Origin: an uncultured Candidatus Nitrosopumilus sp.
Lineage (GTDB): Archaea > Thermoproteota > Nitrososphaeria > Nitrososphaerales > Nitrosopumilaceae
Assembly: GCA_951812655.1 (NCBI GenBank)
Contig: OX638319.1
Location: 496,001 to 560,000, forward strand
Direction: 5' to 3'
Length of the DNA: 64,000 bases
Position 1 is the stretch's first letter, and each line of letters opens with the position of its first letter. Below, piece after piece: positions 22,281 to 22,878 of this stretch. Below the pieces are notes generated by a model. That model was not told the origin of the DNA, did no database searches, and was given only the letters and a program-made list of their open reading frames with translations. The translations under genes were made by a program, and so were the position numbers.

Positions 22281-22314
22281 AATTTTTAAATATATGAAGT
22301 GTATATACTATTTA
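22281..22314 (+). promoter_or_regulatory. TATA-like promoter of the putative ncRNA
   Basis: ATTTTTAAATATAT at about 22281-22295 and a second AT element GTATATACTATTTA at about 22301-22314 precede the folded region. An archaeal TATA box here would start transcription near 22315-22325 on the plus strand. Confidence 0.5.
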
Positions 22315-22319
22315 ATGTC

Positions 22320-22450
22320 GAAAGATAAAATTTCTATCGACTAGAGTTGCGTAGCCCCGCAGAACGAAAAAGGCAATCAGACGTCTATACGATCTGACAA
22401 AGAGAGGAAATCTCTCAGTGTTCTGCAATTTAGGGGTCTGCGCCTTTTAA
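22320..22450 (+). ncRNA. Putative structured non-coding RNA (three-way junction)
   Basis: The segment is richer in G and C than its flanks and folds strongly. A closing helix pairs GCGTAG (22349-22354) with CTGCGC (22438-22443), CCCC (22355-22358) with GGGG (22433-22436), and GCAGAAC (22359-22365) with GTTCTGC (22420-22426). Inside are hairpin A, TCAGACGT-CTAT-ACGaTCTGA (22377-22397), and hairpin B, GAGAG-GAAAT-CTCTC (22402-22416). A T-run follows at 22445-22448. I do not recognise it as a tRNA, 5S, SRP, RNase P or known riboswitch. Strand is inferred from the TATA-like element and the T-run; a minus-strand leader of the SDR gene is the alternative. Confidence 0.6.
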
Positions 22451-22878
22451 TTTTCTACAATGTATACTGATACTGAACCCATGGTGTTTCCATTTGGATT
22501 AATGGTGATTGACATTTCTTGAATTTCAGAGATCAAAATATTTTTTTGTCCTTTGTATTCCCATGTAAAATATTCGGAAATTCCAGTTTGATGTGGACTT
22601 CCAATCAAATCGTAATCTTCAGAAAAATCAAATGCATCCCCATTTAATGTGATTGATAAAATTTCTGGACTGCTTCCATTTGGAACAAATCTGAAAGAAT
22701 ATTCACCTTTTTCAATCAATAAAAAATCTGAATATGTTCCATTTTCGTAAAGATTGGGATCTGCTAGTGTGACATGAAACAAAATATTGTCATCATCATT
22801 TTTTTCATTAGTCGAAACAATTGCAAAAATAACTACAAAAATAACAATGATTGGAATAAACATTATTCTCTTGTTCAA
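22447..22878 (-). CDS. Membrane-anchored or secreted hypothetical protein
   Basis: The protein has 143 residues. An N-terminal hydrophobic segment (RIMFIPIIVIFVVIFAIVS) acts as signal anchor; there is no clear cleavage site or lipobox. The exported part is beta-rich (DFLLIEKGEYSFRFVPNG, ISITLNGD-like strands, MSITINPNGNTMGSVSVYIV), suggesting a beta-sandwich. No family is recognised. Its stop codon lies at the 3' end of the putative ncRNA, so the two are convergent. Confidence 0.6.
   Translation of the reverse strand: MNKRIMFIPIIVIFVVIFAIVSTNEKNDDDNILFHVTLADPNLYENGTYSDFLLIEKGEYSFRFVPNGSSPEILSITLNGDAFDFSEDYDLIGSPHQTGISEYFTWEYKGQKNILISEIQEMSITINPNGNTMGSVSVYIVEN

Follow-up and report, generated by a model that had tools for sequence, protein, structure and literature searches.

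The window analysed here, a 64,000-nucleotide stretch of a contig from an uncultured Candidatus Nitrosopumilus sp. (OX638319.1, positions 496,001 to 560,000), contains a G+C-richer segment between two genes, which raises the question of what this segment encodes and what its product might do. A sequence-only reading had placed a structured RNA at 22320-22450. Coordinates below are those of the window and, unless stated otherwise, of its plus strand.

Fold, covariation and distribution

Minimum-energy folding of 22320-22450 gave -40.7 kcal/mol (z = -3.79), a stability that none of 200 dinucleotide shuffles equalled. The long closing helix and the two hairpins of the sequence-only reading (22349-22443) were recovered in this fold (z = -3.8). 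The closing helix consists of two parts. P1a is formed by GCGUAGCCCC at 22349-22358 (GCGUGRYCC in other genera), which pairs with 22433-22443, and P1b by GCAGAAC at 22359-22366, which pairs with GUUCUGC at 22419-22426. Between P1b and P1a, on the 3' side, lies a one-sided 6-nt bulge (AAUUUA, 22427-22432) that differs in length and sequence among relatives. Hairpin A (22377-22397), which is variable in sequence and length and supported by covariation, carries the CUAU (CTAT) loop that had been claimed for it, as seen in the pairs of the window copy. Hairpin B (22402-22416) also exists as claimed, but its loop is the pentaloop GAAAU and not a GNRA tetraloop of the GAAA type; it has the near-fixed form GAGAG-GNRWU-CUCUC and is a candidate recognition element. 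Directly 3' of P1a, a U-rich tract (TTTTAATTTT, 22445-22454) presumably marks the end of the transcript, and a T-rich tail is also found in relatives. A pseudoknot that would pair the junction AAAAGG with the tail CCUUUU was considered and dropped, being good in the window's genus but not retained in distant genera.

The structure was then compared across an alignment of 22 diverse sequences, on which the structure string was positioned manually. Compensatory changes on both sides were found in 17 of the 28 pairs, and 90.8% of the cells were paired, against 33-52% in slid controls. The covariation score was 0.286, compared with 0.173 in shuffles (0/500 reached 0.286) and 0.05-0.11 with slid partners. 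In these 22 sequences P1a is 100% paired and never broken, with three pairs changed on both sides, while P1b shows both-side changes at 6/7 pairs, its variants GUAGAAC, GCAAAAC, GCGGGAC and GCAGGAC in place of GCAGAAC each having a matching partner strand. Hairpin A changes on both sides at all seven counted pairs, although only 69-77% of its cells pair, owing to alignment gaps in this region, and hairpin B is near-invariant in sequence, with 94.5% of its cells paired. Uncompensated breakage of the helices in relatives, which the sequence-only reading had named as evidence that would refute it, was looked for with a favourable outcome, since all five helices show compensatory changes. Judged from this alignment, the helices are those of a structured RNA under selection. 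A mobile element with inverted repeats was ruled out by the conserved gene order and the compensatory helix changes. The reverse strand of the segment folds too (z = -3.1). Read on the plus strand, the alignment holds G-U pairs in 38 cells against A-C in 9, and because this excess, the TATA box and the open reading frame described below all agree, the RNA was assigned to the plus strand, a minus-strand RNA being less likely.

A second copy, 89% identical to that of the window, is present in the same genome, and a relative was found in 89 of 95 genomes of the same genus, mostly as two copies each (all 56 good genomes were positive). The covariance-model search that the sequence-only reading had proposed, with a first model built on 43 copies, detected the RNA in 199 of the 400 genomes searched from the order, which belong to 18 genera, all in a single family; a second model, built on the 22 diverse members, detected it in 207/400. 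In a draw across the phylum, 62 genomes matched, all from one family, and the copy of the single listed genome of that family without a match was recovered by sensitive searches, complete with a TATA box and a 9-codon ORF (locus L110 of genome G259). We infer that this family is the Nitrosopumilaceae, as the carriers include Nitrosopumilus, Nitrosarchaeum, Nitrosomaritimum and 'Nitrosopumilaceae archaeon', with a few labelled otherwise. The hosts are ammonia-oxidizing archaea of marine and fresh waters. Outside this family, broad searches of the order and phylum gave no match and a sensitive search gave only hits with E > 1; the core pattern was not found in 11 genomes of other families, and a search of viral contigs returned no match. 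Two metagenome-assembled genomes labelled 'Nitrososphaeraceae archaeon' (L155 and L175) carry the RNA together with the TATA box and the 9-codon ORF. These labels may be wrong, as the whole-genome matches are confined to the window's family.

The sequence-only reading had found no RNA class that the segment matched, and Rfam 15 likewise gave no match for the window copy or for 18 related loci. When the window segment was searched at E up to 5, only a plant-virus 5'UTR model appeared, at 15 bits against a cut-off of 75. No description of the RNA was found in the open-access literature. It is highly probable that these copies form a real, conserved family of structured RNA that is as yet unlisted.

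Promoter and micro-ORF

The TATA-like DNA before the RNA and the T-run after it, both mentioned in the sequence-only reading, correspond to TTAAATA at 22286-22292 and to the T-rich tract at 22445-22454. The TATA box is preceded by an A-rich BRE-like stretch and lies 29 nt (start to start) 5' of an ATG at 22315. This spacing is 28-30 nt in nearly all of 93 homologues. A proximal promoter element, TATA, occupies 22304-22307 (-11 to -8 of the ATG), with T, A, T and A found in 81, 84, 75 and 76 of 91 homologues, respectively. That the promoter is strong is suggested by a further conserved stretch, 22298-22307 (about -17 to -8, with the consensus AGTTCCTATA), which the genera share in addition to the TATA box. 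From this arrangement, transcription should start on the ATG at 22315 or 1-2 nt before it. The start of the unit at 22320, as first proposed, has to be moved to near 22314/22315, and a conserved ORF occupies the first 30 nt of the unit. In ordinary genes of the genus loci, TATA-to-ATG spacings cluster at 25-29 nt (small counts), which fits leaderless starts, weakly because many of those genes are orthologues.

This ORF, conserved and predicted to be leaderless, is the main feature of the RNA and had been missed by the sequence-only reading. In the window it extends from 22315 to 22344 and comprises nine codons and a stop (ATG TCG AAA GAT AAA ATT TCT ATC GAC TAG, MSKDKISID). It ends just 5' of the main fold, and the gap between stop and stem is 0-5 nt among copies. 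Among the 93 homologues, the ORF has nine codons in 88, eight in three, and twelve and four in one each, so that 91 have 8-9 codons. Start codons are ATG (91) and GTG (2), and the stops are TAA (58), TAG (19) and TGA (16). A stop stands at the expected triplet in 88 homologues, against 0-3 when the position is displaced by -6 to +6 nt. To test the ORF without reliance on the 5' end, 110 loci found by the core pattern only were read, of which 107 had enough flank. In all 107 a TATA box precedes an ATG by 28-30 nt and the frame closes after nine (98) or eight (9) codons; this set overlaps in species with the 93 homologues. None of 65 distinct ORFs has an internal stop in frame, whereas 49 and 22 of them have stops in the two other frames. 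These counts come from related sequences and are non-independent events, although the divergence is wide.

The encoded peptide, in contrast, is free. The 62 distinct 9-codon ORFs give 56 distinct peptides, ranging from MSKDKISID to MTFVVRAMD, MLVQCRMMD, MAEKSRQMT and MQKDAKSTA, and diversity per ORF pair at codon positions 1, 2 and 3 is 0.36, 0.47 and 0.40. Since position 2 varies no less than position 3 and the peptides are divergent, the peptide is not visibly selected, and since start, frame, length and stop are kept without it, the act of translation looks selected. The sequence pattern would fit the short ORF of a leader-peptide attenuator RNA, of which the translation and not the product matters. 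On such conservation the ORF is very probably translated, and its pattern suggests that translation itself, and not what it yields, controls this RNA or is exploited by it.

A hairpin is predicted within the ORF, between its start and stop codons (22317-22341, pairs predicted in the window copy); over the 62 distinct ORFs its mean z is -2.8, with 90% below -1. Placed right after the AUG, it could impede initiation. A longer protein made by reading through the stop codon was considered and rejected, because by eye the frame is open in some copies and closed in others. In genome G036, the copy at the SDR locus (L051) is degenerate, with 23% G+C, an ORF broken at codon 4 and eroded helices, whereas the copy at the other locus (L050) is intact; ORF and fold have decayed jointly.

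An RNA conserved in this way might be a small mRNA, with the peptide of 8-9 amino acids as its product and the structured part as a protective or stabilising 3' UTR. This would agree with the universal retention of the ORF with all three stops in use, with a last codon that is often D, E or K, and with the frequent K-D at codons 3-4, a recurrence for which the ORF hairpin can also account. The complete divergence of the peptides and the equal variability of codon positions 2 and 3 speak against it; moreover, conservation is higher in the core than in the ORF, and paralogues with different ORFs have the core in common. We regard such an mRNA as unlikely.

Genomic context and comparison with other RNAs

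The upstream SDR gene named in the sequence-only reading belongs to Pfam PF13561 (E = 7e-70) and lies on the minus strand. Downstream, a minus-strand gene at 22447-22878 encodes a product of 143 aa for which a Pfam search gave no match. As both neighbours are on the minus strand, the RNA is flanked by a divergent gene on one side and a convergent gene on the other, and because the stop codon of the latter sits in the U-rich tail, which overlaps its 3' end, a 3'-end overlap between the two transcripts is expected. Across copies, at several unrelated loci, the upstream gene is mostly divergent and the downstream gene mostly convergent. One set, which includes the window, has the SDR gene alongside and then a convergent gene ending PNGN..GPVSV-type, while another has a convergent 363-aa gene (MIKSSEIKKIVNDYSD...) downstream. 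Further copies lie at other places, and a few copies have a close co-directional gene downstream, at 23 nt (L118), 66 nt (L045) or 67-89 nt (L114, L124 and L129). Because the copies serve no single gene, action in trans is favoured.

Paralogues within one genome (L044/L045 in G003, and the window copy/L033 in G000) can have near-identical cores, rare variants included, and keep different ORFs of their locus types. This suggests gene conversion of the core, and it would be expected of a core that is the functional part shared by both copies. A third type of paralogue occurs in genus g8 (L120:12721-12858, L121:4943-5082 and L122:4058-4197), with an altered hairpin B, GGCAAGAGAAUGCUUUUGCC; it keeps the TATA box and the 9-codon ORF (MRKDANSGK and similar) and adjoins a gene beginning MWDAISEKLQDAEKIVFVTGAGISQESG.

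The same context bears on a cis-acting attenuator, in which translation of the micro-ORF would decide passage through P1a and the U-tract terminator into downstream DNA. The leader-peptide-like ORF, the U-rich tract after P1a and the few close co-directional genes would suit it. However, with a convergent next gene in the window and at most loci, read-through would yield only antisense RNA, the paralogous loci differ in their downstream genes, and the ORF codons contain no regulatory amino-acid run. The co-directional regulated operon that characterizes leader-peptide attenuators was not found as a consistent downstream neighbour of this stand-alone RNA, and an attenuator is decidedly unlikely. 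Quite improbable, too, is a purely non-coding RNA in which a structural or initiator role accounts for the AUG and the stop-like triplet, which would be in frame by chance. The ORF region is indeed a hairpin with its own structural constraint, and an initiator preference can yield AUG at the start site, but ATG is twice replaced by GTG, all three stops are used, and length changes in whole-codon steps (8/9) except in one degenerate and one 12-codon copy, while the gap from stop to stem varies over 0-5 nt. Besides the lack of in-frame internal stops in distinct ORFs noted above, the first stop stays at that codon in only 4.3% of shuffled ORF bodies. Least probable of all is a ribosome bait, in which the leaderless micro-ORF would park one ribosome with the core at the mRNA entry side, for instance in storage or stress control: a 30-nt ORF of about one footprint, a leaderless start, an irrelevant peptide and a presence in nearly all family genomes that points to housekeeping would fit, but complementarity to or mimicry of rRNA did not exceed that in shuffles (longest exact match 8-9 nt), and an RNA that pairs with or mimics rRNA was rejected on this chance level.

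No conserved unpaired segment suitable as an antisense seed was found across genera. Bacterial tmRNA combines a reading frame of roughly 10 codons with a structured domain in one RNA. The archaeal RNA differs in that its ORF has an AUG of its own and begins at the 5' end, and neither a tmRNA by ARAGORN, which reports only a tRNA-Gly in the window, nor an Rfam match was obtained. The bacterial dual-function sRNAs SR1, SgrS and RNAIII have coding and structural parts and conserved functional peptides, whereas here only the length, start and stop of the ORF are conserved, and a conserved peptide was not found (56 peptides from 62 distinct ORFs, with codon positions equally variable). Among planktonic archaea, Tan1 of Thalassoarchaea (Euryarchaeota) is a structured non-coding RNA of 229 nt whose structure was derived from homologue comparison, and for which no mention of a micro-ORF was found (PMC5069720). 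The nearest working analogue is rnTrpL of Sinorhizobium meliloti, a leaderless attenuator sRNA that begins with the ATG of a 14-codon ORF (PMC7298713). Both have a 5' end on the ATG of a very short ORF (predicted in the archaeal RNA) and fold, and rnTrpL acts in trans; however, it is an attenuation product from upstream of a trp biosynthesis gene, with a peptide that is active in trans (PMC7298713), whereas the RNA described here has an archaeal host and no such operon, regulatory codon run or conserved peptide. Singly, the parts of the RNA all have precedents. It is judged new in kind because each known kind considered fails a tested defining feature.

Proposed mechanism and significance

Taken together, these features are compatible with a stand-alone, trans-acting structured RNA of about 140 nt in Nitrosopumilaceae, whose closing helix would be gated by the ribosome on the micro-ORF; we give this reading an even chance of being correct. 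Each copy would be transcribed from its own promoter, from a start at most 2 nt away from the AUG, to give a leaderless mRNA. A ribosome would load once the 5' end emerges, read through the ORF hairpin and halt 0-5 nt before the main fold, and because an ORF of 30 nt roughly matches one ribosome footprint, ribosomes would probably do so one at a time. The sequences show the peptide to be dispensable, with start, frame, length and stop retained. When the stop codon occupies the A site, a ribosome of usual dimensions extends about 12-14 nt beyond the first nucleotide of that codon. Its leading edge would then lie at about 22354-22356 and open roughly the outer 6-7 pairs of P1a, among them the most invariant ones, while P1b and hairpins A and B would remain folded. 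Translation may in this way gate P1a and, through it, 3'-end formation, the stability of the core or its binding to a partner; hairpin B would be the probable site of protein recognition in this core. Gating of P1a by the ribosome, deduced from ribosome geometry, falls somewhat short of an even chance. More tentative still is the proposal that the RNA is a free-standing leaderless micro-mRNA, constant in length at one ribosome footprint, whose translation cycle mechanically opens and closes a trans-acting RNA, which would make it a reporter of the translation state.

Nitrosopumilaceae are among the most abundant marine ammonia oxidizers. Almost all complete genomes of the family that were examined carry the RNA, often as two copies, although none of the RNA libraries searched contains it. 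The covariance models allow its immediate annotation. Free in sequence but fixed in length, frame and stop, the micro-ORF would be a clean natural case of translation selected without a peptide product, and the RNA offers a small, concrete and testable way into the study of regulation in these archaea, for which genetic tools are few. If the proposed mechanism is true, the gated RNA would be a new archaeal device whose translation cycle, independent of any peptide or downstream gene, reports the translation state generally in ammonia-oxidizing archaea.
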